DNA from: Halanaerobium congolense
GTDB lineage: Bacteria; Bacillota; Halanaerobiia; Halanaerobiales; Halanaerobiaceae
Assembly (NCBI RefSeq): GCF_004366375.1
Contig: NZ_SOEF01000022.1
Coordinates: forward strand, 1-43,263
Direction of reading: 5' to 3'
DNA: 43,263 nt
Positions 7,060 through 43,263 of the stretch are shown piece after piece. Each line of letters opens with the position of its first letter. Position 1 is the stretch's first letter. The notes under the pieces were generated by a model, which saw nothing but the letters and a program-made list of their open reading frames with translations, was not told the origin of the DNA and did no database searches. The translations under genes and the position numbers were made by a program.

Positions 7060-8223
7060 ATGCTAAATTTTAATTATTCAGTTCCAACAAAAATACTTTT
7101 TGGTAAGCATAAAATTGATTTGTTAGCAGAAAATATAAAAGAATATGGTTCTAAGGTTTTGCTTGTTTATGGTGGAGGCAGTATAAAGAGAAATGGTATT
7201 TATGATACTATAATAGATATTTTTGCTGAAAATAATATAAGTTCCTGGGAATTAGGGGGAGTTAAGCCTAATCCTAGAATTGCTAGTGTAAAAGAAGGAA
7301 TAAAAATTTGTAAAAAGCAGGAAATAGATCTTATCCTTGCAGTTGGGGGAGGAAGTACAATTGATTGTGCCAAAGTTATTGGTGCAGGTTTTTATCATAG
7401 TGGAGATCCCTGGGAAATAGTTACTGATTCCAGAAAAATAGAGGATTCTCTACCAATTGCAACTGTTTTAACTCTAGCTGCTACAGGTTCGGAAATGAAT
7501 GCAGGTGCAGTAATTACTAATTTAGAAACCCAAGAAAAATTAGGAACTGGTCATCCAAGTATGGCACCTAAATTTTCTATCTTAGATCCTACTTATACTT
7601 TTACAGTTCCTGAAAAACAAACCGCTGCTGGTACAGCAGATATAATGAGTCATATTTTCGAAGTATATTTCAGCAAGACAAAAGGAGCCTATGTCCAAAA
7701 TAGAATGGCAGAGTCCCTCTTAAAAACAGCTATTAATTATGGCACAAAAGCTCTTGCAGAACCTGAAAATTATGAGGCTAGAGCTAATTTAATGTGGACA
7801 GCTAGCTTAGCTATCAATGGTCTTTTAAGTTCTGGCAAAGAAACTGAGTGGAGTGTCCACGCTATGGAACATGAACTGAGTGCTTTTTACGATATTACTC
7901 ATGGTACTGGCCTTGCTATTTTAACACCTTATTGGATGGAATATGCCTTAAATGATAATACTCTAGATAAATTTGTTAAATACGGGGTTAATGTTTGGGG
8001 AATTGATTCTGAGCAGGATAAATATAAAATTGCTCAAACTGCGATTGAAAAAACAAGAGAATACTTTAGCTCACTTGGAATCCCTACTAAGTTAAGTGAA
8101 GTTGGGATTGAAGCAGAAAAATTAGAAAAAATGGCAGAACAAGCTACTAGAAGAGGCGAACTAGGTAACTTTAAACCTTTAAGCAAAGAAGATGTCTTAA
8201 ATATTTATCAAAAAGCCTTATAA
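7060..8223 (+). CDS. Iron-containing alcohol dehydrogenase, YqhD/butanol dehydrogenase type
   Basis: The protein has 387 residues, the usual length for group III metal-dependent alcohol dehydrogenases. The nucleotide-binding GGGST lies at 96-100. The metal ligands are D194, H198, H267 and H281, the same positions as in Escherichia coli YqhD. YqhD-type enzymes reduce a broad range of aldehydes to alcohols with NADPH; clostridial relatives act as butanol dehydrogenases. GGGAG precedes the ATG. The gene sits between a nitroreductase and an OYE-like reductase behind a MarR gene. That points to a role in aldehyde stress or fermentative redox balance rather than a dedicated solvent pathway. Cofactor preference is inferred from the subfamily. 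Confidence 0.92.
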   Translation: MLNFNYSVPTKILFGKHKIDLLAENIKEYGSKVLLVYGGGSIKRNGIYDTIIDIFAENNISSWELGGVKPNPRIASVKEGIKICKKQEIDLILAVGGGSTIDCAKVIGAGFYHSGDPWEIVTDSRKIEDSLPIATVLTLAATGSEMNAGAVITNLETQEKLGTGHPSMAPKFSILDPTYTFTVPEKQTAAGTADIMSHIFEVYFSKTKGAYVQNRMAESLLKTAINYGTKALAEPENYEARANLMWTASLAINGLLSSGKETEWSVHAMEHELSAFYDITHGTGLAILTPYWMEYALNDNTLDKFVKYGVNVWGIDSEQDKYKIAQTAIEKTREYFSSLGIPTKLSEVGIEAEKLEKMAEQATRRGELGNFKPLSKEDVLNIYQKAL

Positions 8224-9462: not shown

Positions 9463-9870
9463 TTATATATTCTGATTGATCTGTTGAATATAAGAAAGGT
9501 AGTATTTTATTAATTTATCAAGGTTTTGATAAACAATTCTATTATCTACTTTTTCATATTCATGGACAAGCCTGTTTCTTATTCCTGTACTAGGAGCAAT
9601 ATCTTTTGCAAATTTTTCTGATAATATTTCAAGATCAATCAATTCTAAGAAAGAGGAATAATAATCTTGAGCTGGGTATCTATCAGCTTTTTTTATTAGC
9701 ATATTATTAATATCGAGTGCTAAATCAATAATCAACTGGATAAGACGTTCAATTGCATAGCGTTTAAGCTGATCATTTTTATAATCCTTAAAAGTCTTAG
9801 GTTTGAATTTTTCCAGTTCACTAATATAGCTTTCCATTTTGATGAGTTTGTTTATTATTATTTCATTCAT
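9463..9870 (-). CDS. hepT: HepT-like HEPN ribonuclease toxin (DUF86 type)
   Basis: This 135-residue all-helical protein carries the exact HepT signature RX4HXY as R98-NRLV-H103-E-Y105. HEPN toxins of this family are dimeric RNases whose active site is formed by the Arg and His. In characterised HepT/MntA systems the Tyr of this motif is AMPylated by the partner, which silences the toxin. The start codon overlaps the mntA stop (TAATG), so the two are translationally coupled with the antitoxin first. It belongs to the defence-rich accessory region. Family assignment is firm; the RNA target is unknown. Confidence 0.92.
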   Translation of the reverse strand: MNEIIINKLIKMESYISELEKFKPKTFKDYKNDQLKRYAIERLIQLIIDLALDINNMLIKKADRYPAQDYYSSFLELIDLEILSEKFAKDIAPSTGIRNRLVHEYEKVDNRIVYQNLDKLIKYYLSYIQQINQNI

Positions 9871-10259
9871 TAATATCTCGCCTCAAGTTTTTTCGCAAGA
9901 GTTTTTCTCCTGTCATTATATAAAAACTTAGTATCAGCGTAAATACCTGCTGCATAGATACTGAATTTTTCAAATTCTTTTTTGCTACCGTATAATAATT
10001 TTCCTTTTTTTGCAATTTCTACTTTTAAAATAGGTTCAGCTTTAGTTAGATTAACAAGATCAATATCAGCACGTTTATAAAATCGAGATAATTCATTTAA
10101 AAGTTCTATCTCTTTTGATTCTGTTAACAGCTCAGAGCATTTATACCCAAGATCAAGATCACTGTTTTGGTTATTTGTGTTACTAGCATAGGAACCAAAA
10201 ACAATAAATAATTCTATATTATACTTATCAATAATAGCATTGGGTACTTTTAATTTCAT
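9870..10259 (-). CDS. mntA: MntA-like nucleotidyltransferase antitoxin
   Basis: The protein is a minimal nucleotidyltransferase of 129 residues. The motif G22-S23-X10-D34-L-D36 exactly fits GSX10DXD of MNT antitoxins, which bind Mg-ATP and transfer AMP to HepT. The start is taken as the ATG at 10259 because GAGGTGG ends 5 bp before it. Two in-frame ATGs further upstream (10292, 10289) lack a site and would add 11 residues. Downstream hepT overlaps by one base. It is divergently oriented from hsdM, with about 140 bp between them. An intact catalytic motif suggests a working antitoxin. Confidence 0.92.
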   Translation of the reverse strand: MKLKVPNAIIDKYNIELFIVFGSYASNTNNQNSDLDLGYKCSELLTESKEIELLNELSRFYKRADIDLVNLTKAEPILKVEIAKKGKLLYGSKKEFEKFSIYAAGIYADTKFLYNDRRKTLAKKLEARY

Positions 10260-10325
10260 TTCAACCACCTCTTCATTTAAATTATACATCATTTTTGAAA
10301 ACTTAAAAAGAAAAATTTTGTTGAT

Positions 10326-10400: not shown

Positions 10401-12497
10401 ATGAACAACTTCGGAGAAAAAGTAAATTTCATTTGGAACATAGCAAATCTATTAAGAGGTCCATATAAACCAGAAAAATATGGAGATATAATACTACCTC
10501 TTTCAGTTTTAAGACGTTTTGACTGCATTTTAGAACCGACTAAACCTAAAGTTTTAGAGAAAGCAAAGGAAGTAGATATTCCTGAACTGTTGAATGCAGC
10601 AGCGGGATTTAAATTTCACAACAAAAGCAAATATGACTTTGAAAAACTGCTTGATGATCCAGATAATATTGCAGAGAATTTAAGAGCATATATCAGAGGT
10701 TTCAGTTCTAACATCAGAGAGATTATGGAGAACTTTGATTTTGATAAAGAGATAACTAAACTTAACTCAAATAATCTTCTCTTTCTGGTAGTTAAAGAAT
10801 TTAACAAATTAGATCTACACCCTGAGAAAGTATCCAATCAGGAAATGGGTTACATATTCGAAGAATTAATCAGAAGATTTTCTGAAAATGCTGAGGCTGG
10901 TGATCACTATACACCACGAGAAGTAATCGAATTAATGGTTAATATTATTTTTAATGGTGAAGAAGATGAACTGACCAATCCAGGGAATATTTCTACCATT
11001 GGAGACTTTGCATGTGGAACTGGTGGTATGCTTTCAGTAGCTGAGAACTACATTCACGAGATGAATCCTAATGCTGAAGTAGCTTTATATGGCCAGGAAA
11101 TCAATGATCAGTCCTATGCTATCTGTAAGGCAGATATGCTGATTAAAGGTGAGGGAGAAAATGCTGATAACATTGCCTTAGGTAACTCTTTAACCAATGA
11201 TTTACATCATGGTTTACGGGTTAGATATGGTTTAATGAATCCTCCCTTCGGTGTCAGTTGGAGAAAAGACAGCAAGGAAGTAAAAAAAGAACACAAGAGT
11301 CAGGGTTTTGATGGTAGATTTGGTGCTGGTACACCAAGAACCTCTGATGGGTCTCTCCTCTTCCTGCAGCACATGCTTTCTAAAATGAAAACTGATAAAA
11401 AAGGTAGTAGAATGGCTATTATCTTTAATGGGTCACCCCTATTTACGGGTGATGCAAATAGTGGTGAAAGTGAAATTAGACGCTGGATAATAGAGAATGA
11501 TTTATTGGAGGGTATTATTGCTCTGCCAGAAGAATTGTTTTACAACACTGGGATTGCTACATATATCTGGGTCTTATCTAATAGAAAAAATGATGATTTA
11601 GAAAAAGGTCCGCTCAGAAAAGATAAAATTCAACTGGTTGATGCAACAAGCTTCTATAAAAAAATGAGAAAATCACTGGGTGCCAAAAGAAACAAAATTT
11701 CTAAGCAGCAGATTAATAGAATAAGTGAAATCTATGGTGCTTTCCAGGAAAATGAATACTCTAAAATCTTTGATAAAGAAGAATTTGGTTATCTTAAAGT
11801 TCGAATTGAAAGACCACTTAAATTAAACTTCAAAATCACTGAAGATAGAATTGAAAATATTTATGCTGAAAATACTTTCTCAAAATTATTTGATGAAGAA
11901 AAATATAAGAAACTGAAGAAATTATCTGAAGCTCCAGAGTTTAAATCTAAGGATAAAAAGAAATTAGAAAAACTGGAAGCAGGTAAAAAACTGCAGGAGA
12001 AAATTTTAAATAGATTGAGAGCAAATATTGAGCAGGATAAAGTCTGGAAAAACAGAAAAGAATTTAAAGAAGTGCTGAAAGAAATTTTAGGTGATTTAGA
12101 TTTAAAGCGTTCCTTAATGAAAGCTGTCAGAAATGGTCTTGCTAAAAGAGATGAAACTGCTGATTATTGTAAAAAGCGAGGCAAGATAGAATCAGATACA
12201 GATCTGCGTGATTATGAGCGAATTCCTTTTAGTCACAAGGTAGAAGAATACAAACAGGATTACTCTGATTTTGTGGAAAAAGAAAAAGATAACATTACAG
12301 CTTATTTTGAAGAAGAAGTAAAACCACATGTGCCAGAAGCATGGGTAGATTATTCTTATACTAGAGTTGGCTATGAGATTCCTTTTACAAGATATTTTTA
12401 TGAGTTTGAAGAGTTAGAGCCTTCTCATAAGATTAAAGAAGATATTGAAGAATTGGAAGCAGAAATCAATCAGATTATGCAGAAAGTTTTAGGTTAG
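10401..12497 (+). CDS. hsdM: Type I restriction-modification system DNA methyltransferase subunit
   Basis: HsdM here has 698 residues. An N-terminal helical HsdM domain (about 5-130) leads into an N6-adenine methyltransferase core with SAM-binding motif FACGTGG at 203-209 and catalytic NPPF at 280-283. A long charged C-terminal region (about 470-698) makes it longer than typical 500-residue HsdM proteins; such long forms are known in some type I subclasses. It methylates adenines in the bipartite site chosen by HsdS and joins HsdS and HsdR in the restriction complex. GGAGG precedes the ATG. The stop (TAG, 12495-12497) lies 5 bp before the likely hsdS start, so the genes are coupled. Confidence 0.95.
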   Translation: MNNFGEKVNFIWNIANLLRGPYKPEKYGDIILPLSVLRRFDCILEPTKPKVLEKAKEVDIPELLNAAAGFKFHNKSKYDFEKLLDDPDNIAENLRAYIRGFSSNIREIMENFDFDKEITKLNSNNLLFLVVKEFNKLDLHPEKVSNQEMGYIFEELIRRFSENAEAGDHYTPREVIELMVNIIFNGEEDELTNPGNISTIGDFACGTGGMLSVAENYIHEMNPNAEVALYGQEINDQSYAICKADMLIKGEGENADNIALGNSLTNDLHHGLRVRYGLMNPPFGVSWRKDSKEVKKEHKSQGFDGRFGAGTPRTSDGSLLFLQHMLSKMKTDKKGSRMAIIFNGSPLFTGDANSGESEIRRWIIENDLLEGIIALPEELFYNTGIATYIWVLSNRKNDDLEKGPLRKDKIQLVDATSFYKKMRKSLGAKRNKISKQQINRISEIYGAFQENEYSKIFDKEEFGYLKVRIERPLKLNFKITEDRIENIYAENTFSKLFDEEKYKKLKKLSEAPEFKSKDKKKLEKLEAGKKLQEKILNRLRANIEQDKVWKNRKEFKEVLKEILGDLDLKRSLMKAVRNGLAKRDETADYCKKRGKIESDTDLRDYERIPFSHKVEEYKQDYSDFVEKEKDNITAYFEEEVKPHVPEAWVDYSYTRVGYEIPFTRYFYEFEELEPSHKIKEDIEELEAEINQIMQKVLG

Positions 12498-12502
12498 TGG
12501 TT

Positions 12503-13903
12503 ATGATGAGAGAATATAAGAGATATGAGGAGTATCAGGATAGTGGAGTTGAATGGATAGGTGAGATACCTAAAGCATGGAATTTAATTAGATTTAAATA
12601 TTTATTTTCATATCAAAAAGGTAATTCACCAAATGAATATGTAGGTAAAAGTGAAGGTATACCCTATCTTTCAATGGATTACCTTAGAGGAAATAATGAT
12701 GAAATAACATATGTAAGTAATGATCCTAATATGATTAAAGTAGAAAATAATCAGATATTATTATTATGGGATGGTTCAAATTCTGGAGAATTTATCAAAT
12801 CTAAAAAGGGATTATTATCTTCAACTATGTCTTTGATTACTGACATAAAAATAGATAAGGAATTTTCTTATCATTATTTTAAGTCTTCAGAAAAATATTT
12901 AAAAGATCAAACAATTGGTATGGGAATTCCTCATGTTGATTCAAAAATTTTAAAGAACTTACATCTATCTGTCCCAGAAAAAGATGAACAACAAAAAATA
13001 GCATCTTTCCTTGACCAAAAGACAGCTGAAATAGATGAGATAATATCCAAAAAAGAGACTCTTATAGACCATCTAGAAAAATTTAAAAAATCAGTTATAA
13101 CTGAAGCTGTAACTAAAGGTAAATTAGGAGATAAATATATCAATAAAGATGGAGAATTAGTTGATGAAATTGAAATGAAAGATAGTGGAATTGAATGGAT
13201 TGATGATGTACCTAATAATTGGGAAGTAAATTATATAAAGTACTATTGTTCTAAAATAACAGATGGTTCACATCATTCTCCAGCTCAACAATCTGAAGGA
13301 AGACCATATATAACAGTGAGAAATATTGAAGAAAATAATATAAATTTCAATTCCTGTTCATATTTATCAGAAGACAATTATAATGAATTGGTTTTAAGTG
13401 GGTGCAAACCAAAATCTGGAGATGTTTTATTAAGCAAAGATGGTACAGTTGGGAAAGTTGTAATAGTAAATGACAATGATTTTGTGGTTTTATCTTCAAT
13501 AGCAATTTTAAGACCAAAGAGCAATAATTTGTTATCTAATTTTTTGTTTTATATTTTGAAATCTAATTACTTAGAAAATCAAATGAATAGTTTTATGGCT
13601 GGAGCAGCTATAAAGAGAATAACTATTACTGATATAAATAAATTTATTATTATTGTTCCTCAACTCAATATTCAAAATGAAATAATAAATTATCTTAATA
13701 AAAAAACAAATCAAATAAACAACCTAATCCAAAGAACAAAAGAATCAATAGAAAAATACAAAGAATACAAAAAGTCTCTTATCTTTGAAGCTGTTACTGG
13801 TAAGATAGATTTAAGAGATTACGAATTAGAAGGGGGAGAAGAACTTGCTGAGCACAATAACTCCAGCGAAACTGAAAGAGAAAGCATTTCAGCAGTTGAT
13901 TAA
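12503..13903 (+). CDS. hsdS: Type I restriction-modification system specificity subunit
   Basis: HsdS of about 466 residues has the two-fold repeated layout of the family: target recognition domain 1, central conserved helix, target recognition domain 2, distal conserved helix. Each half opens with DSG(V/I)EWI and closes with a coiled-coil segment (EQQKIASFLDQKTAEIDEII and QNEIINYLNKKTNQINNLI). Each target domain reads one half of a bipartite sequence and the helices set the spacing. The ATG at 12503 is preferred; a GTG at 12497 would overlap the hsdM stop, and neither has a strong site. The last 59 bp overlap hsdR. The target domains are AT-rich compared with hsdM and hsdR, as expected for segments that exchange by recombination. 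Confidence 0.93.
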   Translation: MMREYKRYEEYQDSGVEWIGEIPKAWNLIRFKYLFSYQKGNSPNEYVGKSEGIPYLSMDYLRGNNDEITYVSNDPNMIKVENNQILLLWDGSNSGEFIKSKKGLLSSTMSLITDIKIDKEFSYHYFKSSEKYLKDQTIGMGIPHVDSKILKNLHLSVPEKDEQQKIASFLDQKTAEIDEIISKKETLIDHLEKFKKSVITEAVTKGKLGDKYINKDGELVDEIEMKDSGIEWIDDVPNNWEVNYIKYYCSKITDGSHHSPAQQSEGRPYITVRNIEENNINFNSCSYLSEDNYNELVLSGCKPKSGDVLLSKDGTVGKVVIVNDNDFVVLSSIAILRPKSNNLLSNFLFYILKSNYLENQMNSFMAGAAIKRITITDINKFIIIVPQLNIQNEIINYLNKKTNQINNLIQRTKESIEKYKEYKKSLIFEAVTGKIDLRDYELEGGEELAEHNNSSETERESISAVD

Positions 13904-16829
13904 AGAATATCTCATTAGTGAGAATAATTATGTTGAAAGCAGTAATTTAAGCTATGATAAATATCATGCTATAGATACAGAAATGTTATTTGAATTCTTA
14001 GAAACAACTCAGGAAAAAACCATGAAGGAACTAAAAAATATTTATGGACCTGAGTATAAGCAAAAAATAGTTAAGAGGTTAAATGAAGAATTAGCCAGGC
14101 GAAGCATGATTGATGTAATAAAGCATGGTATTAAAGATTATGGTAAAAAACTGGACTTAGCATACTTTAAGCCCCCGACAGACTTCAATGAAAAGCTAAA
14201 TAAACTGTACAGTCAGAACATCTTTTCCGTGATCGATGAACTAAATTATCAGGATGAAAAAAGAATTGATGTTGTTCTTTTTCTAAATGGTTTACCTATC
14301 ATAACAATGGAATTAAAAAATCAGGATACAGGTCAGGATTATAAGAATGCAATCTATCAATATAAAAATGATAGATCTCCAAATGAAAAATTATTTAGAT
14401 TTAAGCAGCGGGCAATAGTAAACTTTGCAGTTGATAAAGATGAGGTCTATATGACAACTGACCTTAATGGAAAAGATACTTTCTTTCTTCCTTTTAATAA
14501 AGGTCAAGGCAAGGGCAAATCTAAAAAAGCTGGTAATCCTGAAGTTGAAGGCAAATTAAAGACTCATTACCTCTGGGAGAATATTTTCAAGAAAGACCAG
14601 CTTTTAGAGATTCTGCAGAAATTTGTTTTTATTGATCTTGAAGAAGATATTGATGAGCAGGGCAATCTTCATAAAGATGAAAAATTAATCTTCCCTCGTT
14701 ACCATCAGTTAGATGTAGTGTCTAAAATATTGAATGATGTTACAGAAAAGAAAGCTGGCCATAAATATTTGATTCAGCATAGTGCGGGCTCAGGTAAAAC
14801 CTATTCAATCACCTGGTTAGCTCATAGATTGTCCAGTTTACATGATAGAGATAATAATCCTATTTTTAGCAGTGTAATAGTTGTTACCGACAGAGTTTCT
14901 TTAGACCAGCAGCTGCAGGATACTATATATCAAATAGACCATAAGCTGGGTGTAGTAGCTCCTATTAAAAAAGATTCACATCAATTAGCCGATGAATTAA
15001 ATTCAGGCACCAATATTATTATCAGTACAATCCAAAAGTTTCCCTTTATATTAGATAAGGTATCAGATACTAAAGACAAGAACTTTGCAATTGTTATTGA
15101 TGAGGCTCATTCTTCTACAAGTGGTAAAAACATATTAGCTCTAAAAGAATCCCTATCACTCGAAGAAGCAGCTGAATTAGATAGGCAGGCAGAAATGAAT
15201 TCTGATGATGTTGAAGATAAGATTAATAAGGAATTAATGCGGGTCCAGAGTCTGGATTCCTTAAGTTTCTTTGGCTTTACAGCTACTCCTAAGTCTTCAA
15301 CACTAGAACTATTTGGTTCTACTAGTCAGACAGGTAAAAGGGAGCCATTTCATGTCTATTCGATGCGGCAGGCTATTGAAGAAGGTTTTATTTTAGATGT
15401 TTTAGAAAACTATATGACCTACAAAACTTACTATCGGGTTAATAAAAAGATTAAAGATGATCCTGAATTTGAGAAATCCAGAACTTCAAAAGAAATTGCC
15501 AGATTTGTAAGTCTTCATCCTCACAACATATCACAGAAAACTGAAATAATGATTGAACATTTCCGTGATAAGACAATGCACAAAATTGGTGGAGAAGCTA
15601 AGGCGATGCTGGTTACCTCTTCTCGTCTGCATGCAGTAAGATATAAAAAGGCTTTTGATAAATATATTAGAAAAAAAGGTTATAAGAATCTAAAAAGTCT
15701 GGTTGCTTTTTCAGGCACAGTCAAAGATGATGGTTTTGAATACACTGAACCTAAGATGAATGACGGCATACCTGAATCAGAAACAGCTAAAGAATTTAAT
15801 AAAGATGAATATCAGATCCTTTTAGTTGCTAATAAATATCAGACTGGCTTTGACCAGCCAAAACTGCACACCATGTTTGTTGATAAGCGGTTGAGAGGTG
15901 TTAATGCTGTCCAGACTTTATCCCGTTTAAATAGGACATACAAAGGGATTAAGGAAGATACCTTTGTCCTTGATTTTGTTAATGAAGCTGATGATATTAA
16001 GAATGCCTTTGAACCTTATTATGATGTAACAAGACTGGATTCAGATAATATAAATCCTAATGAAATGTACACTCTTTATGATGAGATAATGGATTCAATG
16101 CTGATAAATAAAGATGATATTGATGATTTTGCTCAATGCTATTATGAAAATGATTCTACAGAGGAGATAATAGCAGCTGGTGATAATGCTTTATCACACA
16201 GTGCAGACAGAATCAGAAATTTATCGAAAGAAGATAAGTTAGAATTCAGATCCAAGATGAAGCGATTTATCAACCTCTATAATTTAGTACTGCAGGTCCA
16301 TCCAATCAAAGATGCTGATCTGCACAAGATGAATATCTATTTAAGATTCCTGCTTAAAAGGATTGATATTGAAACCCCTGGTAATGTAGATATTTCTGAT
16401 AAAGTTGTACTTGAATACTATCAGCTCGAGAATAAAGGTCAGCAGAGTATAGGATTAATTGGTGAAGAAGAACTTACGGGACCGTCTCTGGGCAGTGGCA
16501 GCTATCACGAGGAAGAAAAAGAATATTTGAGTGTTATTATTGAGAGATTAAATGAAAAGTTCCAGACTGATTTTTCAGAATCAGCTAAAGTTGCTACCGA
16601 GCAGATGACTAATAAGCTAAAAAATGATGATGACTTAAAGAAACGTGCTCAGGCTAATAGCTTAGAAGATTTTAAGATTGCCGTTAAGAAGAAGTTTACC
16701 GACACAGTTGTTGAATCTTATAATGAGAATACTGAATTTTATGGTAAGATTCTTAATGATAAAGCTTTTAAGGAGCAGCTGATGGAGTTAATTATTATTG
16801 ATCTTTATCGGAGCTTGAATGGAGAATAA
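13845..16829 (+). CDS. hsdR: Type I restriction-modification system endonuclease/translocase subunit
   Basis: HsdR has 994 residues. The N-terminal nuclease domain shows the PD-(D/E)XK pattern D142 and E156-L-K158. A superfamily 2 helicase follows with Walker A AGSGKT at 314-319 and DEAH at 419-422, then the second RecA-like domain and a helical C-terminal region that docks on HsdM. It translocates DNA by ATP hydrolysis and cuts at a distance. The start is TTG at 13845: GGGGGAG (13832-13838) sits 6 bp before it, and the 59-bp overlap with hsdS implies coupling. The protein is full length with all key motifs present, so restriction is probably active. Confidence 0.94.
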   Translation: MLSTITPAKLKEKAFQQLIKEYLISENNYVESSNLSYDKYHAIDTEMLFEFLETTQEKTMKELKNIYGPEYKQKIVKRLNEELARRSMIDVIKHGIKDYGKKLDLAYFKPPTDFNEKLNKLYSQNIFSVIDELNYQDEKRIDVVLFLNGLPIITMELKNQDTGQDYKNAIYQYKNDRSPNEKLFRFKQRAIVNFAVDKDEVYMTTDLNGKDTFFLPFNKGQGKGKSKKAGNPEVEGKLKTHYLWENIFKKDQLLEILQKFVFIDLEEDIDEQGNLHKDEKLIFPRYHQLDVVSKILNDVTEKKAGHKYLIQHSAGSGKTYSITWLAHRLSSLHDRDNNPIFSSVIVVTDRVSLDQQLQDTIYQIDHKLGVVAPIKKDSHQLADELNSGTNIIISTIQKFPFILDKVSDTKDKNFAIVIDEAHSSTSGKNILALKESLSLEEAAELDRQAEMNSDDVEDKINKELMRVQSLDSLSFFGFTATPKSSTLELFGSTSQTGKREPFHVYSMRQAIEEGFILDVLENYMTYKTYYRVNKKIKDDPEFEKSRTSKEIARFVSLHPHNISQKTEIMIEHFRDKTMHKIGGEAKAMLVTSSRLHAVRYKKAFDKYIRKKGYKNLKSLVAFSGTVKDDGFEYTEPKMNDGIPESETAKEFNKDEYQILLVANKYQTGFDQPKLHTMFVDKRLRGVNAVQTLSRLNRTYKGIKEDTFVLDFVNEADDIKNAFEPYYDVTRLDSDNINPNEMYTLYDEIMDSMLINKDDIDDFAQCYYENDSTEEIIAAGDNALSHSADRIRNLSKEDKLEFRSKMKRFINLYNLVLQVHPIKDADLHKMNIYLRFLLKRIDIETPGNVDISDKVVLEYYQLENKGQQSIGLIGEEELTGPSLGSGSYHEEEKEYLSVIIERLNEKFQTDFSESAKVATEQMTNKLKNDDDLKKRAQANSLEDFKIAVKKKFTDTVVESYNENTEFYGKILNDKAFKEQLMELIIIDLYRSLNGE

Positions 16830-16858
16830 TCATGGATCAATGAAAGGAGGTGGTATTT

Positions 16859-17008
16859 ATGGCTGTTAAACATATAGATACTGGAATAGTACACAAGGGT
16901 ACAAAAGGTGGAAAGACTGGTTGTGGAGTTGATACTAGAAAAAAACCAAGTCATTGGGCAAGCACAAGCTCAAGAGTAACATGTAAAAAAGATGGATGTA
17001 AAAACTAG
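16859..17008 (+). CDS. 49-residue Cys/His-rich protein, putative small zinc-binding accessory of the hsd operon
   Basis: A short gene starts at the ATG at 16859 behind one of the strongest ribosome binding sites in the window (AAAGGAGGTGG), 29 bp after hsdR. It ends just before a terminator, which makes it the last gene of the hsd operon. The 49 residues are basic, with H12, C22, H32, C42 and C47 near the C-terminus (VTCKKDGCKN). The layout, a single Cys in a CG turn and a closing VTCK-X3-C, recalls small phage and plasmid zinc-finger proteins of unknown function. That resemblance is from memory and weak. No transmembrane segment is seen. Function unknown; its operon position suggests a link to restriction or its control. 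Confidence 0.75.
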   Translation: MAVKHIDTGIVHKGTKGGKTGCGVDTRKKPSHWASTSSRVTCKKDGCKN

Positions 17009-17018
17009 TTTTATGGGG

Positions 17019-17064
17019 CCAGGTAACAGAAGATATTTTTTTAACAAAACTGTTGCCTGGTTTT
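17019..17064 (+). terminator. Terminator of the hsd operon
   Basis: An 11-bp stem (CCAGGTAACAG with CTGTTGCCTGG, one G-T pair) has a 20-nt AT-rich loop and is followed by TTTT. It lies 10 bp after the small Cys-rich gene, which places that gene inside the hsd transcript. Confidence 0.8.
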
Positions 17065-17167
17065 ATAGAATATCTAAAGACAATAATTAGTTTATTTTGA
17101 GAAATGATTTAATATATCTATATTGAAATGTTTGAAGAATCAACCTTATTTTGAAGGATAAAACTAT

Positions 17168-17195
17168 TTGCCATAGAAGTAATATAATATATAAT
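17168..17195 (+). promoter_or_regulatory. Promoter of the AAA+/subtilase operon
   Basis: TTGCCA (17168-17173) and TATAAT (17190-17195) are 16 bp apart, about 45 bp before the AAA+ start codon and after the hsd terminator. The -10 box is consensus; the spacing is one base short of optimal. Confidence 0.6.
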
Positions 17196-17239
17196 GTATA
17201 TAAGTCTATAAAATTATAACTATTTGGAGGTGTTATAAA

Positions 17240-18211
17240 ATGGCTAGAGGTGATTTAGTTTTAAAATTAGTTCAGGCTGGGATGTCTGGAGATAAGAGCT
17301 TATTTGAAAGAACCACTAAAGCTATTATTTCCGAAGAAAAAGCGAAAGATCATCACATTTTGGCTTCAAGGATCGAAGAAAAGTTTAAAAACGAGAACAA
17401 GGGCACTTCTAACAATAAAAATAATACCTATTATCTCAAAAATAAAAATGCTAAAAACAAAGCTTTAATAGAAAGAGTTCCTCGTTTTACTTTTGAAGAT
17501 TTAATTTTAAATAAAAAGATATTGAAGGTTTGTAGTGAACTGATTGAGGAGCAGCAGAAGTCTGATATATTAAGAGCTAATAATGTAGAGCCGAGACACA
17601 GGGTCCTTTTAGTAGGCCCACCTGGAAATGGTAAAACTTCCTTAGCAGAAGCGATTGCTGAAGAATTAATGATTCCTTTGTTTATAGTTTCTTATGAACA
17701 ACTTATAAGCAGCTATCTGGGAGAAACAGCTAAGAAAATTAATGAATTATTTGAATTTGTTAGCAAACGAAATTGTGTATTGTTTTTTGATGAGTTTGAT
17801 GTGCTGGGTAAAGAAAGAGGAGATTCCAGAGAGTCAGGAGAAATTAAAAGAGTGGTCAGTTCTTTATTAATGCAGGTAGATGATTTACCAAGTAATGTGG
17901 TTGTTGTAACTGCAACTAATCATCCGGAATTGTTAGATAGAGCTGTCTGGCGTCGATTTCAAATTAAGCTTGAATTAGATTATCCTTCCAAAAAAGATAT
18001 TATTAAATGGTTTAATAAATTCGAAAAAAGTATCAATACCAATTTAAAATTTGAGAAAGAGATTCTGGCGGATAAATTGTTAGGGCTGAGTTTTGCGGAG
18101 ATAGAACAATTTGGCCTTGATGTTTATAGAAGATTAATATTAAGTGGTAATTCTCTTAAAAGTATAATAAATGAAAGATTAGAGCAGTGGGATAATAAAA
18201 TAAATGACTAA
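17240..18211 (+). CDS. AAA+ ATPase, IetA-like partner of a subtilase
   Basis: The protein has 323 residues. A basic, low-complexity N-terminal region (about 1-80) precedes one AAA+ module. Walker A is GPPGNGKTS at 126-134, Walker B is VLFFDEFD at 180-187, sensor 1 is ATN near 225-227, and RR at 238-239 is placed as an arginine finger. It resembles FtsH/p97-type AAA domains without a fused protease. The next gene, 26 bp away, encodes a subtilisin-like protease. That ATPase-plus-S8-protease pairing is the layout of IetAS, described as a plasmid stability locus and as an anti-phage system. The IetA label rests on pairing and domains, not on a search. GGAGGTG precedes the ATG. Confidence 0.78.
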   Translation: MARGDLVLKLVQAGMSGDKSLFERTTKAIISEEKAKDHHILASRIEEKFKNENKGTSNNKNNTYYLKNKNAKNKALIERVPRFTFEDLILNKKILKVCSELIEEQQKSDILRANNVEPRHRVLLVGPPGNGKTSLAEAIAEELMIPLFIVSYEQLISSYLGETAKKINELFEFVSKRNCVLFFDEFDVLGKERGDSRESGEIKRVVSSLLMQVDDLPSNVVVVTATNHPELLDRAVWRRFQIKLELDYPSKKDIIKWFNKFEKSINTNLKFEKEILADKLLGLSFAEIEQFGLDVYRRLILSGNSLKSIINERLEQWDNKIND

Positions 18212-18237
18212 TTAATAATTGATTGGAGGAAATTAAC

Positions 18238-20805
18238 TTGCCCCAGAAAAAGTATATTCCTTTTCCTGATTATACAATTATTGGACGCGAAAGTTTAAAT
18301 AGCGGTGGAAGAGATACTATGAAATATCCTTCACGCAAAGAACAAAAAGATAAATTTGATGGTCCCATGAGAGAGTTGACGCGTACAATGGAGTCAAGAC
18401 TCGCTGAAATAAAAGATGAGACTACTGGCTTAGACCCGGATATGGTTCTGGTATTAGAAACGGTAGGAAATATCGGTAATTTTTATACAGCAGTAAAAAA
18501 CACTCAAGGGTTTAACTGGTTGGTAGATTCTATGTCAGAGAGTATTGAGGAAAATGAAGAGTTTTATAAAGATAGTGCTCCTTCAGGTAAGGAATTAAAA
18601 TGCAAGTTATATATGCTTTTAACAAATAGGACTGCTCTGGAACAGTTACTTCAGTTATGGGATAAATTCAATAGGGAAGAAGAACTTCCTCGAGGTAAAA
18701 AAGGTTGGAGAGAGATTTTTAATCATTTAAAAGATATTAGAACCTGGGGTGTAGAGGATAGGCTTCAAGATACGGGTCTGTTAGAAAGATGGAAAGAAGA
18801 TTTAGAATATCAAGACTCAGTGAAGTTTGAAATAGAATTCTGGTTTAATAATGATCAAGATAAGCAAAGATTAATTGAGTCTGATTTTAAAAGTAAAATC
18901 GAGGAATTTGAAGGTGAAATTATCGATTCAGCTTTAATCGAAGAGATTAAATATCATGCTTTTTTAGCAGAAATCCCTGTTGTTTCAGCTGAAAAATTAG
19001 TTGTTGACTTTAAAGAAAACAATGATAATAAACTTTTAAAGTCTGAGTCTGTAATGTTCTTTAATCCACTCCCACAGGCGGATTATAAATTTCAGGTTGA
19101 AGAATTGGAAGAATCAGCTACCGATACCGACAATATTGGTACTACAGAACAAACCGGTATGGAGCCAGTGGTTGCTTTATTTGATGGTTTGCCTCTGCAA
19201 AACCATCAGTCTATAAAAAATAAATTAATTATTGATGATCCTGAAGATTTTGAGGATAATTATCTGGCTAAATATAGATTACATGGTACAAGTATGGCTT
19301 CTTTGATTTTAAATGGAGATTTAAATAATTCTTTTCTTAAACATGAAAGGCCTATTTATGTTAGACCAATACTAAAGCCAGACTTAGAAAATAATTTTGA
19401 TGGTCAAATAAGAGAAACTATCCCTGAAGATATATTATTTATAAAAAGGATTTATCAGGCTGTAAAAAGACTATTCGAAGAAGGAAATGATGGGGTAGCT
19501 TCTGAAATAAAGATCATTAATTTTTCCATTGGTGATAAATATCGTCCATACTTAGATAAGATGAGTTCTCTGGCCAGACTATTAGATTGGCTTTCATGGA
19601 AATATAAAGTTCTTTTTATGGTTAGTGCCGGTAATAAAGTTGAGAATTTTGATTTCGAAGAGGGAGAATACACAAAGGACAGCTTATTAAAAAATATAAA
19701 TGAAAATTTAAGAAATAGTAAAATTTTGTCACCTGCAGAGTCAATAAATTCAATTACTGTTGGAGCTCAACATAAAGATTATAGTGAGTTTTCTTTAAAT
19801 AGTAATATACATGTCGATTTTTTCGAAGAGCATAATGATTTACCCAGTCCTATTTCACGCTTTGGTTTAGGTTATAATAGAACAGTTAAACCAGATATTT
19901 TATTGCCAGGTGGAAGACAGATATATAATAAGAATTACTTACCTGAGGGAAATTATAGATTTACTCCTAACTTTTCACCACATAACCCCCCTGGTTTAAA
20001 AGTTGCTTTTCCTGGATCAAGTCCAGGATTAAATAATTTTGCTTATACTACGGGTACAAGTAATGCCAATGCCTTGGCAACTCATAAAGCAGCTGAATTA
20101 TATGAGTTACTAAAAACCAATGAAGAGTTTACTAATATACCAGATGATGAGATAACAGCATTAATAAAATGTCTGCTAGTTCATTATGCAGACTGGAATA
20201 ATGGATATGAATTATTGGAAGAAACATTGTCTCAAGAAGTAAATGTTAATTATTTTAGAAAACATGCACAAAAGTTTTTAGGTTATGGTTTTATTAGTCC
20301 AGAACAAATATATGGGTGCACTGAAAGTCAGGTTACTTTATTTACCACATCAAAAATCAAGGCTGAGGAGGGACATCAATATATTTTTCCTTTACCTGAA
20401 AGTCTTGAAAGTAAAACTATTCCAAGAGATCTAATTATTACTTTGGCCTGGTTTAGCCCAATTAAATCTCAGTTTAAAAATTATCGATTGGCTAAATTAT
20501 ATTTTAAACCGCCACAAGATGAATTAATGTTGGGAAGAAGTCAGGCGGACTGGCATGCTGTAATGAGAGGGACTCTTCAGCATGAAATTTTAACAGGTGA
20601 TAAAGCCAGTGTTTATTATGATAGTGATAATATAGAGGTTAGTGTTAACTGCTATGATAAAACAAATGAATTAAAAAAGAATGATTTTAAAATTCCTTAT
20701 GCACTCGCAGTTACACTAAAAATTGAAGAAGATATTAATATTTATAATGAAATAGAAGAAAAGGTAAGAATAATTAATCAACAGAGAGAACAGATTAGAA
20801 CATAA
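18238..20805 (+). CDS. Subtilisin-like (S8) serine protease, IetS-like
   Basis: The protease has 855 residues from TTG at 18238; TTGGAGGA lies 7 bp before it, so the in-frame TTG at 18223, which is part of that site, is not used as start. A roughly 310-residue N-terminal region without a recognised motif is followed by an S8 core. The core has D316 (ALFDGLP), H349 (LHGTSMA), an oxyanion-hole Asn at about 466 (SAGN) and S608 (GTSNANA). A C-terminal beta-rich domain completes the protein. There is no signal peptide, so it acts in the cytoplasm. Paired with the upstream AAA+ ATPase, it fits the IetAS defence/stability module, in which the ATPase is thought to control the protease. The catalytic set is intact. 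Confidence 0.8.
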   Translation: MPQKKYIPFPDYTIIGRESLNSGGRDTMKYPSRKEQKDKFDGPMRELTRTMESRLAEIKDETTGLDPDMVLVLETVGNIGNFYTAVKNTQGFNWLVDSMSESIEENEEFYKDSAPSGKELKCKLYMLLTNRTALEQLLQLWDKFNREEELPRGKKGWREIFNHLKDIRTWGVEDRLQDTGLLERWKEDLEYQDSVKFEIEFWFNNDQDKQRLIESDFKSKIEEFEGEIIDSALIEEIKYHAFLAEIPVVSAEKLVVDFKENNDNKLLKSESVMFFNPLPQADYKFQVEELEESATDTDNIGTTEQTGMEPVVALFDGLPLQNHQSIKNKLIIDDPEDFEDNYLAKYRLHGTSMASLILNGDLNNSFLKHERPIYVRPILKPDLENNFDGQIRETIPEDILFIKRIYQAVKRLFEEGNDGVASEIKIINFSIGDKYRPYLDKMSSLARLLDWLSWKYKVLFMVSAGNKVENFDFEEGEYTKDSLLKNINENLRNSKILSPAESINSITVGAQHKDYSEFSLNSNIHVDFFEEHNDLPSPISRFGLGYNRTVKPDILLPGGRQIYNKNYLPEGNYRFTPNFSPHNPPGLKVAFPGSSPGLNNFAYTTGTSNANALATHKAAELYELLKTNEEFTNIPDDEITALIKCLLVHYADWNNGYELLEETLSQEVNVNYFRKHAQKFLGYGFISPEQIYGCTESQVTLFTTSKIKAEEGHQYIFPLPESLESKTIPRDLIITLAWFSPIKSQFKNYRLAKLYFKPPQDELMLGRSQADWHAVMRGTLQHEILTGDKASVYYDSDNIEVSVNCYDKTNELKKNDFKIPYALAVTLKIEEDINIYNEIEEKVRIINQQREQIRT

Positions 20806-38404: not shown

Positions 38405-38935
38405 GTGATAAAAATTAAAACTAAGGAAAGACGAGGTAAATTGCTGCAGAGATTAAAAGCGTCTCAGCAGGCATTGATTGGTTCTCAATTGGCAGAGGAA
38501 TTTGGGGTTAGTCGTCAGGTTATTGTTCAAGATATTGCTCTTTTGAGGGCAGAAGGGGAGAAGATAGTTGCCACTTCTCAGGGATATTTCTATGAAAAAA
38601 ATTTGGGGATGCCAACTGTTAAAGCTTCTATTGCCTGCTCTCACGATGATCAGCAAGAATTAAAAGATGAACTTTTGACTGTTGTTAATTATGGAGGTAG
38701 AGTTATTGATGTTAAAGTTGAACATCCAATTTATGGTGATTTAAGCGGTAACTTAATGATCAGCAGCAGAGAAGATGTTGATAATTTTATAAAAAATTAC
38801 AGAGAAAATGAGGCCTCATTACTTTCTAAACTTACAGAGGGTGTCCATTTGCATACAATTGAAGCTGTTAATAGGCAGGTTTTAAAAAAGATTAAAGAAG
38901 AATTAAAAGAAAAAGGATATTTGTTGGAGGAATAA
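38405..38935 (+). CDS. niaR: Niacin-responsive transcriptional repressor NiaR, copy 1
   Basis: NiaR has about 176 residues. An N-terminal winged helix-turn-helix (LIGSQLAEEFGVSRQVIVQDIALLRAEG, about 25-52) precedes a 3H domain with the conserved histidines in VEHPIYGDL and GVHLHTIEAV. These bind nickel and nicotinic acid in characterised members. NiaR represses niacin uptake and NAD synthesis genes. The start is uncertain: the GTG at 38405 is itself part of the site GAGGTG, and a rare ATT at 38414 would be correctly spaced from it. A matching operator lies 45 bp upstream, and a transporter gene follows, consistent with autoregulation of an uptake unit. Confidence 0.9.
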   Translation: MIKIKTKERRGKLLQRLKASQQALIGSQLAEEFGVSRQVIVQDIALLRAEGEKIVATSQGYFYEKNLGMPTVKASIACSHDDQQELKDELLTVVNYGGRVIDVKVEHPIYGDLSGNLMISSREDVDNFIKNYRENEASLLSKLTEGVHLHTIEAVNRQVLKKIKEELKEKGYLLEE

Positions 38936-38995
38936 TTTTTTATTTTTACTGTAAAGACAGCTGTATATTCAGCTATAATATTGGGGGTTATAAAT

Positions 38996-39196
38996 TTGGG
39001 AAATGATAAATTAAAAAAATTAAGATTACTTTATGTGGCATTGATTTTACTGCTTGTACTTAGTGCTTTGACTGTTCCTTATCTTATGTTAAATTCGATT
39101 AATCTTTTTAGAGGGGCTTTTCTATTCTGGCTTTTTTTTGCTTTAATTGTTATCTTTTTAACTATAAAAATTACAACTTACTGGAGGGATAATTAA
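38996..39196 (+). CDS. Small two-helix membrane protein, probable symporter partner, copy 1
   Basis: This 66-residue protein starts with TTG 38996, 8 bp after GGGGG (38983-38987). Two transmembrane segments (about 8-30 and 37-57) with basic ends are clear. Small genes of this type (YhdT- or DUF3311-like) often lie directly before sodium:solute symporter genes. Its stop overlaps the symporter start (TAATG), so production is coupled. A role in assembly or stability of the symporter is inferred. Confidence 0.8.
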   Translation: MGNDKLKKLRLLYVALILLLVLSALTVPYLMLNSINLFRGAFLFWLFFALIVIFLTIKITTYWRDN

Positions 39197-40683
39197 TGCC
39201 GATATCATATTTATATACAGCAATAATTTTATACATAATAATTGGCTCGATAGTTGCTTTAATGGCCAGACGAGAAATGAATGATGGAGTTGTCGAATAT
39301 TTTTTAAGTGGTAGGAATACAGGGGGGGTTGTGGCTGCTCTTTCTTATAGTGCTACTACCTATAGTGCTTTTATGATGATTGGTCTGGCAGGCTTTACAT
39401 ATTCAGGTGGAGTTGGAGCACTTGGATTTGAGCTTATTTATTTATCAGGCTTGTCTCTAGTAGCATTTTTTGGTCCCCGGTTTTGGTTAATTGGGAAAAA
39501 AAATAATTATGTTTCACCTTATGAAATGTTGGGTGATCGTTATCAAAATCAGTGGATAGCTTTTGCAGCTTCACTTTCGGCCTGCATTTTTTTAATTCCA
39601 TATCTTGCAGTTCAGCTAATGGGAGTTGGCTATCTCTTGAATGGACTCTCAGATGGTGAAATTCCATTTATTTTTGGAGTCGCAATAGCTGTAATGCTGG
39701 CAATCGCCTGGGCCTTAATTGCTGGCATGAAATCTGTTACCTGGACTGATTCTCTGCAGTCATTAATTATGATTGTAATCAGTGTAATTATTTTATTTTA
39801 TGTAATCTATCAGAATTTGGGTGGTTTTAAAGATTTTTTTGATTCACTTGCAGCTCTGGAAGGAAATGTATTAACTGTACCTGGACCAGGATTTTTTAAA
39901 TTTAAAACATTTCTTGGGTTGAGTCTGCCCTGGTTTTTCTTTTCTATCTCTAATCCCCAGGTTAGTCAGCGTCTTTTTATTCCCCGAGATTTAAAAGCTA
40001 TGAAAACAATGATCAAAGGCTTTTTAGTTTTTGGATTTATTTATACTTTAGTTTCAGTTTTTTGGGGATTTTCAGCTAGACTTTTAATTCCTGGACTGAG
40101 TAATGCAGATTTGGCAACACCAGAGCTTCTAGCATCTCAATATGTGCCAACTGCTTTAGCACTGGCAGCCATGATTGGAATAACAGCTGCTGCAATTTCC
40201 ACCATTGATTCAATAATGCTGACTTTATCTTCACTTGTAGTTAGAGATATTTTCAAAAATATGGAGGATAATTTGGATCAAGAGCAAAATTTAAGACAGC
40301 TGCGGACAGCTAAAATTGCTATTTTGATTATCGCTCTTTTAGGATTTTTCTTTGCTATTCAGGAGCTCGACTTAATTGCCACTCTCTCAGTAGCAGCTTC
40401 AATTGGACTGCTGGTTGTAGTTCCCTCGATTTTTGGTGCTTTTTTCTGGAAAAAAGCTACAGCTGCTGCATCTTTGAGCAGTATTATAATTGGTTCGATT
40501 ACTGCTTTATACCTCCAGTTTAGCAGCTGGAGTCCACTGGGTCATGGTGCCGGAGTTTGGACACTGCTCGTTTCAACAGCAGTTTTTGTTATTGGCAGCT
40601 TATTTACTGAAGCTCCGACAGAAAAAGCTGATCAATTTATAGATTATATAAATGAAGAATGTAGGCAAAGAAATATAATTTAA
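39196..40683 (+). CDS. Sodium:solute symporter family transporter, copy 1 (candidate niacin-related uptake)
   Basis: This 495-residue polytopic membrane protein has about 13 predicted helices and the SSS-family features EYFLSGRNTGG near the first loop, SYSATTYSAFMMIGLAG, and AAAISTIDSIMLTLSS in the region of the second sodium site. GGAGGG precedes the ATG. It sits in one unit with niaR under a NiaR-like operator. Known NiaR-linked transporters are NiaP, NiaX and NiaY types, not SSS members, so nicotinate or a related compound as substrate is a hypothesis. Pantothenate-type symporters (PanF) are the nearest family alternative. Confidence 0.88.
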   Translation: MPISYLYTAIILYIIIGSIVALMARREMNDGVVEYFLSGRNTGGVVAALSYSATTYSAFMMIGLAGFTYSGGVGALGFELIYLSGLSLVAFFGPRFWLIGKKNNYVSPYEMLGDRYQNQWIAFAASLSACIFLIPYLAVQLMGVGYLLNGLSDGEIPFIFGVAIAVMLAIAWALIAGMKSVTWTDSLQSLIMIVISVIILFYVIYQNLGGFKDFFDSLAALEGNVLTVPGPGFFKFKTFLGLSLPWFFFSISNPQVSQRLFIPRDLKAMKTMIKGFLVFGFIYTLVSVFWGFSARLLIPGLSNADLATPELLASQYVPTALALAAMIGITAAAISTIDSIMLTLSSLVVRDIFKNMEDNLDQEQNLRQLRTAKIAILIIALLGFFFAIQELDLIATLSVAASIGLLVVVPSIFGAFFWKKATAAASLSSIIIGSITALYLQFSSWSPLGHGAGVWTLLVSTAVFVIGSLFTEAPTEKADQFIDYINEECRQRNII

Positions 40684-40727
40684 AAGTTATTGACAATTAT
40701 AATCTATAATTTTAATTCAGATTGAGC

Positions 40728-40756
40728 TTGACAAAAGATCTTTTATAAGATAAAAT
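40728..40756 (+). promoter_or_regulatory. Consensus promoter at the end of unit 1, with a palindrome in the spacer
   Basis: TTGACA (40728-40733) and TAAAAT (40751-40756) are 17 bp apart. The 12-bp palindrome AAAAGATCTTTT (40733-40744) begins at the last base of the -35 box. In the ancestral arrangement it would have driven the gene to the right of the unit; after duplication this copy points into niaR copy 2, about 100 bp away. Confidence 0.75.
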
Positions 40757-40798
40757 TATTAAAAATCAAGTGATAATTAAAATTAAAAAATTAAAAAC

Positions 40799-40827
40799 AT
40801 TACAGATGTCATGACAGATGATAGAAT
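40799..40827 (+). promoter_or_regulatory. niaR promoter, copy 2, with altered -35 box
   Basis: This is the counterpart of 38344-38372. The operator TGTCATGACA (40807-40816) and TAGAAT (40822-40827) are unchanged, but the -35 reads ATTACA because the duplication junction falls after its first base. The first T of the -35 box is normally well conserved, so this promoter should be weaker. Confidence 0.65.
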
Positions 40828-40859
40828 GTTTAGCATAGCAGCTAAATTTAATTATTGAG

Positions 40860-41390
40860 GTGATAAAAATTAAAACTAAGGAAAGACGAGGTAAATTGCT
40901 GCAGAGATTAAAAGCGTCTCAGCAGGCATTGATTGGTTCTCAATTGGCAGAGGAATTTGGGGTTAGTCGTCAGGTTATTGTTCAAGATATTGCTCTTTTG
41001 AGGGCAGAAGGGGAGAAGATAGTTGCCACTTCTCAGGGATATTTCTATGAAAAAAATTTGGGGATGCCAACTGTTAAAGCTTCTATTGCCTGCTCTCACG
41101 ATGATCAGCAAGAATTAAAAGATGAACTTTTGACTGTTGTTAATTATGGAGGTAGAGTTATTGATGTTAAAGTTGAACATCCAATTTATGGTGATTTAAG
41201 CGGTAACTTAATGATCAGCAGCAGAGAAGATGTTGATAATTTTATAAAAAATTACAGAGAAAATGAGGCCTCATTACTTTCTAAACTTACAGAGGGTGTC
41301 CATTTGCATACAATTGAAGCTGTTAATAGGCAGGTTTTAAAAAAGATTAAAGAAGAATTAAAAGAAAAAGGATATTTGTTGGAGGAATAA
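40860..41390 (+). CDS. niaR: Niacin-responsive transcriptional repressor NiaR, copy 2
   Basis: The encoded protein is identical to the niaR product at 38405, with the same winged helix and 3H domain, and the same uncertain start (GTG 40860, or ATT 40869 behind GAGGTG). Transcription can come from its own altered promoter, from the consensus promoter at 40728, or by read-through from unit 1, since no clear terminator separates the units. Two copies could raise repressor dose. Confidence 0.9.
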   Translation: MIKIKTKERRGKLLQRLKASQQALIGSQLAEEFGVSRQVIVQDIALLRAEGEKIVATSQGYFYEKNLGMPTVKASIACSHDDQQELKDELLTVVNYGGRVIDVKVEHPIYGDLSGNLMISSREDVDNFIKNYRENEASLLSKLTEGVHLHTIEAVNRQVLKKIKEELKEKGYLLEE

Positions 41391-41450
41391 TTTTTTATTT
41401 TTACTGTAAAGACAGCTGTATATTCAGCTATAATATTGGGGGTTATAAAT

Positions 41451-41651
41451 TTGGGAAATGATAAATTAAAAAAATTAAGATTACTTTATGTGGCATTGAT
41501 TTTACTGCTTGTACTTAGTGCTTTGACTGTTCCTTATCTTATGTTAAATTCGATTAATCTTTTTAGAGGGGCTTTTCTATTCTGGCTTTTTTTTGCTTTA
41601 ATTGTTATCTTTTTAACTATAAAAATTACAACTTACTGGAGGGATAATTAA
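41451..41651 (+). CDS. Small two-helix membrane protein, probable symporter partner, copy 2
   Basis: Identical to the gene at 38996: 66 residues from TTG 41451 behind GGGGG, two transmembrane helices, and a stop that overlaps the symporter ATG. No base differences were seen, so both copies should be equally functional. Confidence 0.8.
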   Translation: MGNDKLKKLRLLYVALILLLVLSALTVPYLMLNSINLFRGAFLFWLFFALIVIFLTIKITTYWRDN

Positions 41652-43138: not shown

Positions 43139-43182
43139 AAGTTATTGACAATTATAATCTATAATTTTAATTCAGATTGAGC

Positions 43183-43211
43183 TTGACAAAAGATCTTTTA
43201 TAAGATAAAAT
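43183..43211 (+). promoter_or_regulatory. Consensus promoter at the end of unit 2
   Basis: This is the second copy of the 40728 promoter: TTGACA (43183-43188), 17-bp spacer with AAAAGATCTTTT, TAAAAT (43206-43211). It points out of the window and probably drives the next gene to the right. Confidence 0.7.
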
Positions 43212-43263
43212 TATTAAAAATCAAGTGATAATTAAAATTAAAAAATTAAAAACATTGATCAGG

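Follow-up and report, generated by a model that had tools for sequence, protein, structure and literature searches.

A broadly transferred 49-residue mini-protein with a predicted single metal site, adjacent to but separate from the type I restriction-modification genes of Halanaerobium congolense

Immediately behind hsdR of Halanaerobium congolense lies a short open reading frame (ORF), which raises the question whether it belongs to the type I restriction-modification (RM) operon and what its product might do. The window analysed here is a stretch of 43,263 nt (contig NZ_SOEF01000022.1). In a preliminary description the frame was regarded as a real, unannotated last gene of the hsd operon, and its product was suggested to have one zinc site. 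The features needed to follow the argument are:

10401..16829, + strand: hsdM, hsdS and hsdR, type I RM genes; neighbours, outside the transferred unit of the mini-protein
16839..20799, + strand: block shared with locus L001 (Halanaerobium saccharolyticum), 89.6% DNA identity
16845..16853, + strand: ribosome-binding site AGGAGGTGG, from sequence; within the block conserved with L001
16859..17008, + strand: gene of the 49-residue mini-protein with putative zinc site (PHROG 38555 family); H12, C22, C42 and C47 invariant
17019..17060, + strand: hairpin 3' of the mini-protein gene; 11-bp stem, 20-nt loop, TTTT tail
17168..17195, + strand: best promoter-like site, TTGCCA-16-TATAAT, 11/12, a consensus match only
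17240..18211, + strand: IetA-like AAA ATPase; NCBIfam IteA_antiphage E 1.6e-70 (below the equivalog cut-off), Pfam AAA
18223..20805, + strand: IetS-like S8 peptidase; NCBIfam IteS_antiphage E 4.7e-27 (below the cut-off), Peptidase_S8

The ORF starts with an ATG at 16859, its stop codon ends at 17008 and the product has 49 residues (MAVKHIDTGIVHKGTKGGKTGCGVDTRKKPSHWASTSSRVTCKKDGCKN). Since dozens of full-length homologues exist across several phyla and the own genome contains a single full-length copy, the ORF is not a chance frame. It is a genuine gene, as had been proposed. Likewise the proposed ribosome-binding site and spacing are confirmed: AGGAGGTGG is located 5 nt in front of the ATG, and a gap of 29 bp separates the gene from hsdR, whose stop codon is complete at 16829. 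The terminator that had been placed 10 bp behind the stop holds in part. A hairpin does begin at this position (stem arms 17019-17029 and 17050-17060) and is kept in two related (sister) genomes with one compensatory change; against a strong terminator stand the loop of 20 nt, the tail of four T and a strict scan which called no terminator here, whereas a looser scan picks the hairpin up. It probably represents a weak terminator or attenuator. The promoter-like site is located downstream of the mini-protein gene and upstream of ietA. As the mini-protein gene itself lacks a conserved promoter, it may be transcribed from the hsd promoter in the window. An Rfam search of 16700-17300 for regulatory RNA returned nothing besides two eukaryotic matches below threshold, which were taken as chance and discarded.

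Further features of the window were noted. A HepT/MntA type VII toxin-antitoxin pair (9463-10292, - strand) closely precedes hsdM in the opposite orientation, so that the window holds three consecutive defence-type systems, namely HepT/MntA, type I RM and IetAS. The frames of hsdS and hsdR overlap by 59 bp (13845-13903) if hsdR begins at its first TTG; the true hsdR start may be further in. At the end of the window 38405-40859 and 40860-43263 form a near-perfect tandem duplication (99.8% over 2,404 bp), which may be real or an assembly artefact. The duplicated unit encodes a 176-aa protein similar to transcriptional repressors (NiaR-like by eye) and a 495-aa protein similar to sodium/solute symporters.

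The profile of PHROG 38555 matches the window protein over its full length (positions 1-49 of 49, E 2.8e-20); the lowest E-value, 2.4e-27, was obtained with a Vibrio member. Pfam and NCBIfam contain no matching family at E up to 1. The sequence motifs tried and the PHROG name occur in no paper found, and a small protein of this kind was not found in the literature on defence, integrons and restriction. The mini-protein thus belongs to an uncharacterised family, so far catalogued only as the unnamed PHROG 38555. A search of 50,697 phage records yielded zero copies, and deeper viral scans added no further homologues.

Among GTDB species genomes 13 homologues were detected, in Halanaerobium, Neiella, Photobacterium, Algoriphagus, Mesonia and a Neomarinimicrobiota MAG. 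Further homologues are located on Vibrio and Marinobacter plasmids, on virus-classed contigs and in Flavobacteriaceae and Vibrionaceae. Homologues are 40-96% identical and cover at least four phyla, the taxa being Halanaerobium, other Bacillota, Gammaproteobacteria, Bacteroidota and Neomarinimicrobiota. Of the five records with the first plasmid matches, four have no annotated gene in the matched stretch. Presence is sporadic: counting each group's seed genome, the gene occurs in 3 of 12 genomes of the own genus, 2/299 of the phylum, 2/369 of a gammaproteobacterial class, 4/395 of the class Bacteroidia, 23/299 Flavobacteriaceae and 7/197 Vibrionaceae, and its frequency is ~1% or less in broader genome samples. 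The gene has been transferred broadly between very different bacteria.

The final alignment of the family comprises 49 sequences. H12, T20, C22, W33, C42 and C47 are invariant in all of them, while H5 and H32 vary. Hence the best reading of the alignment is a single predicted H-C-C-C metal site formed by H12, C22, C42 and C47 with the spacing H-x9-C-x19-C-x4-C, all four ligands that a zinc-binding mini-domain calls for being invariant (n=49). The member in L101 ends in ...ITCKNCLR, a classic C-x2-C, which supports the metal site. The metal is most likely Zn(II). The single zinc site postulated before is thereby very probable as a single metal site; of the pattern H12/C22/H32/C42/C47 all residues are present in the window protein, but H32 falls outside the invariant set and was dismissed as a zinc ligand, being missing in L035 and L048.

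AlphaFold2 models of the mini-protein reach a mean pLDDT of 87-89 with a pTM of about 0.6 and show short strands at 2-5, 11-13 and 33-36. Searching the PDB by sequence and by fold revealed no convincing relative, and a viral fold library gave E >= 1.8 only. The net charge of the homologues ranges from -2 to +9, a spread which fits poorly with one simple mode of binding or coating nucleic acid.

The defence neighbours of the gene change from locus to locus. McrBC-like genes are found in L001, Mrr in L002, RloB with an AAA_21 protein and HsdR in L005, HEPN-RES and HsdM in L007, and Cas_TM1802 in L008. Other loci contain SIR2 (L015), UvrD-type helicases (L013 and L036), a HamB-like helicase (L012), Lamassu-like LmuB (L038), PD-T7-5 (L103), PDC-S19 (L104) and PDC-M02B (L036). 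In Neiella (L003, 4377-7693) TniQ and Csy2-like genes adjoin the homologue, together with an SMC-like ATPase; a Tn7-like CRISPR-associated transposon may carry this copy as cargo. Residence in defence islands is not universal, since the surroundings are ordinary chromosomal ones in Photobacterium L010 (near a BCCT transporter), L037 (beside CbiM) and L040 (beside dnaN). Moreover, defence neighbourhoods gather many kinds of cargo, so that location alone is no proof of a defence role. No neighbour cluster is common to most loci, and the largest recurrent clusters are mostly limited to Bacteroidota. A two-gene toxin-antitoxin pair was ruled out on this ground, as the partner gene is not constant.

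In Vibrio, the DNA common to L034 and L103 is a 659-bp segment with the mini-protein gene and nothing more, and in L104 the gene is located between attC-like direct repeats whose hairpin folds have z of about -2.4 to -3.5. Genes of DUF3265, a marker of Vibrio cassette arrays, are found near the plasmid copies L047 and L048. By these sequence signs the Vibrio copies look like integron cassette cargo; an integron integrase was not identified for them. In two loci the domain is part of a longer protein: in L004 (8288-9007) it is followed by two hydrophobic segments, with a normal solo copy just upstream (8001-8150), and in L048 (7791-8153) two weaker hydrophobic segments precede it.

The window itself was compared with L001. 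Window positions 16839-20799 align to L001 7982-11922 with 89.6% identity over 3,969 columns (3.97 kb). This block runs from the ribosome-binding site of the mini-protein gene to the end of ietS and contains the mini-protein gene, the hairpin, ietA and ietS; upstream of it lies hsdR in the window and an unrelated 533-aa gene in L001. The alignment with L002 of the same genus is limited to the 149-bp gene itself (79%), and IetAS is absent there. From the block boundaries, the mini-protein gene of the window probably came in together with IetAS. Its adjacency to hsd is therefore positional only, and on this reading the mini-protein does not count among the subunits of the type I RM system. The view of the gene as last member of the hsd operon finds no support as biology, because the shared block opens at the ribosome-binding site and excludes hsd; in view of this boundary and the changing neighbours, the idea that gene and hsd operon form one biological unit was rejected.

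One rival reading is that the mini-protein regulates the type I RM system or counters its toxicity, in agreement with its position 29 bp after hsdR. HsdR or HsdM is found <=6 kb from the mini-protein gene in 9 of 48 loci and in none of 40 control stretches, taken mostly from the same contigs as the case loci (one-sided Fisher p about 0.003, calculated by hand), in a comparison which covers type I RM genes only and in which the HsdR/HsdM profiles came from the case loci, tilting sensitivity toward these; L083 and L085 have their matches at the locus edge. Direct adjacency of hsd genes is seen in the window, L033 (142 bp after hsdR), L007 and L107, and hsd genes are also near in L005, L090 and L098. 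The expected recurrent linkage to hsdR thus exists, but most homologues have other neighbours, the hsd side is left out of the transferred block, and with four HSDR_N matches and one mini-protein copy in the own genome the gene accompanies one of four HsdR loci. Neither constant linkage to hsd nor co-transfer with it was observed, and control of restriction or countering of HsdR toxicity, as put forward earlier, finds no specific support. We regard this role as very unlikely. A third component of the IetAS locus, which would regulate or activate the pair of IetA ATPase and IetS protease or be its substrate, would agree with the common 3.97-kb block in two Halanaerobium genomes and the IetA-like ATPase directly upstream in L039. 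However, IetA occurs in only 3 of 48 loci (window, L001 and L039) and IetS in 2, so that the gene shows no conserved presence with both, and 45 loci show no IetA; L002 carries the gene without IetAS, and in the window the hairpin and the best promoter-like site separate it from ietA. Such a role appears improbable.

Alternatively the gene could serve mobile elements as an anti-defence or stabilisation gene that shields the element from its host. Its occurrence on plasmids and virus-classed contigs, beside the CRISPR transposon of L003 and in cassette-like arrays would agree with this, whereas copies beside host defence systems and on chromosomes and the lack of any match in the phage collection argue against it and leave it a slim chance. 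The remaining rival sees the mini-protein as a small domain for sensing or stress (metal or envelope stress), one of several under the control of a TPR histidine kinase and response regulator, with residence in defence loci being secondary. In Flavobacteriaceae the same response regulator is present <=6 kb from the gene in 17 loci, in about 15 of them upstream on the same strand after a TPR-histidine kinase; in L086 and L096 it lies about 490 and 570 bp upstream. A TerB-like gene occurs in 12 loci, in many cases with genes of a membrane protein and of a lipoprotein (by eye possibly vWA-like) behind it, and in Flavobacteriaceae small YegP/DUF1508-, DUF4236-, excalibur- and YidD-like ORFs (by eye) surround the gene. 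CbiM upstream in L037 points in the same direction. Yet the regulator is found in 48 of 120 Flavobacteriaceae genomes mostly without the mini-protein gene, which makes the gene optional cargo of this locus too, and the search for this regulator gave no match at the mini-protein loci of Bacillota and Vibrio. As a general explanation this is unlikely, although among the rivals it has the most support, followed by the IetAS helper, the element-protecting gene and the hsd regulator.

The Flavobacteriaceae locus deserves a note of its own. In L083 (2102-10851) and its relatives L088, L091, L095 and L097 the recurrent locus comprises a small membrane protein, the TPR-histidine kinase, the response regulator, exchangeable small one-domain genes, the TerB-like protein, a 421-aa membrane protein and a 303-aa lipoprotein. 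PADLOC gave no match for the latter two proteins. By its arrangement this resembles a conflict or stress locus of a kind not yet described. In L130, likewise from Flavobacteriaceae, a nucleotidyltransferase-like ORF (CD-NTase-like by eye) lies downstream of a similar response regulator, which hints that the two-component pair may control defence cargo.

Given no constant partner, travel as lone cargo and conservation across phyla, the data are most simply read as a mini-protein that suffices by itself and acts on a widely conserved target. We consider it probable that the gene encodes an autonomous, horizontally moving mini-protein built around one metal ion, which serves as adaptor or effector of defence islands with no fixed partner. 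The protein would fold on a single metal ion via H12, C22, C42 and C47, and its gene would travel as lone cargo through defence islands, integron-like cassette arrays and conflict loci. Most likely it would then work as a small adaptor or effector whose conserved residues V3, H5, T26, H32 and W33 make up the binding surface for some cellular or phage component of wide conservation, adding a layer of defence or stress response without dependence on a fixed partner. In some hosts it might act at the membrane, as the two fusions to membrane segments would suggest, and in Flavobacteriaceae possibly under the stress two-component system. Identity of ~60% across phyla together with the lack of a fixed partner points to a single conserved interaction under strong selection. 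More tentatively, and with a modest chance of being correct, the gene of the 49-residue zinc protein alone may already be a full anti-phage or anti-element gene that is portable, ranks with the smallest known and works in Gram-positive and Gram-negative hosts on a conserved target. Searches of defence islands aim at large enzymes, and tiny genes mostly stay unannotated. If the mini-protein acts alone, it would represent a portable defence module of very small size and give easy access to that target.

Compared with known systems, the mini-protein resembles type I RM accessory genes in directly following hsdR in two loci, but differs in that its partner is not conserved and the shared block omits the hsd side. 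With the IetAS anti-phage system it has in common that ietA and ietS share one transferred block with it in two genomes; unlike the two named genes of that system, it usually occurs without IetAS. Zinc ribbons and one-domain zinc-finger micro-proteins are likewise short with one site of four conserved Cys/His, and one mini-protein member shares their C-terminal C-x2-C, whereas most members have no paired CxxC knuckles and the family matches no PDB entry and no Pfam or NCBIfam profile. A further counterpart is PHROG 38555, whose profile covers the mini-protein in full length. In PHROGs it is entered as a virus family with no function assigned, in contrast to our dataset, where most members reside in bacterial genomes and defence islands.
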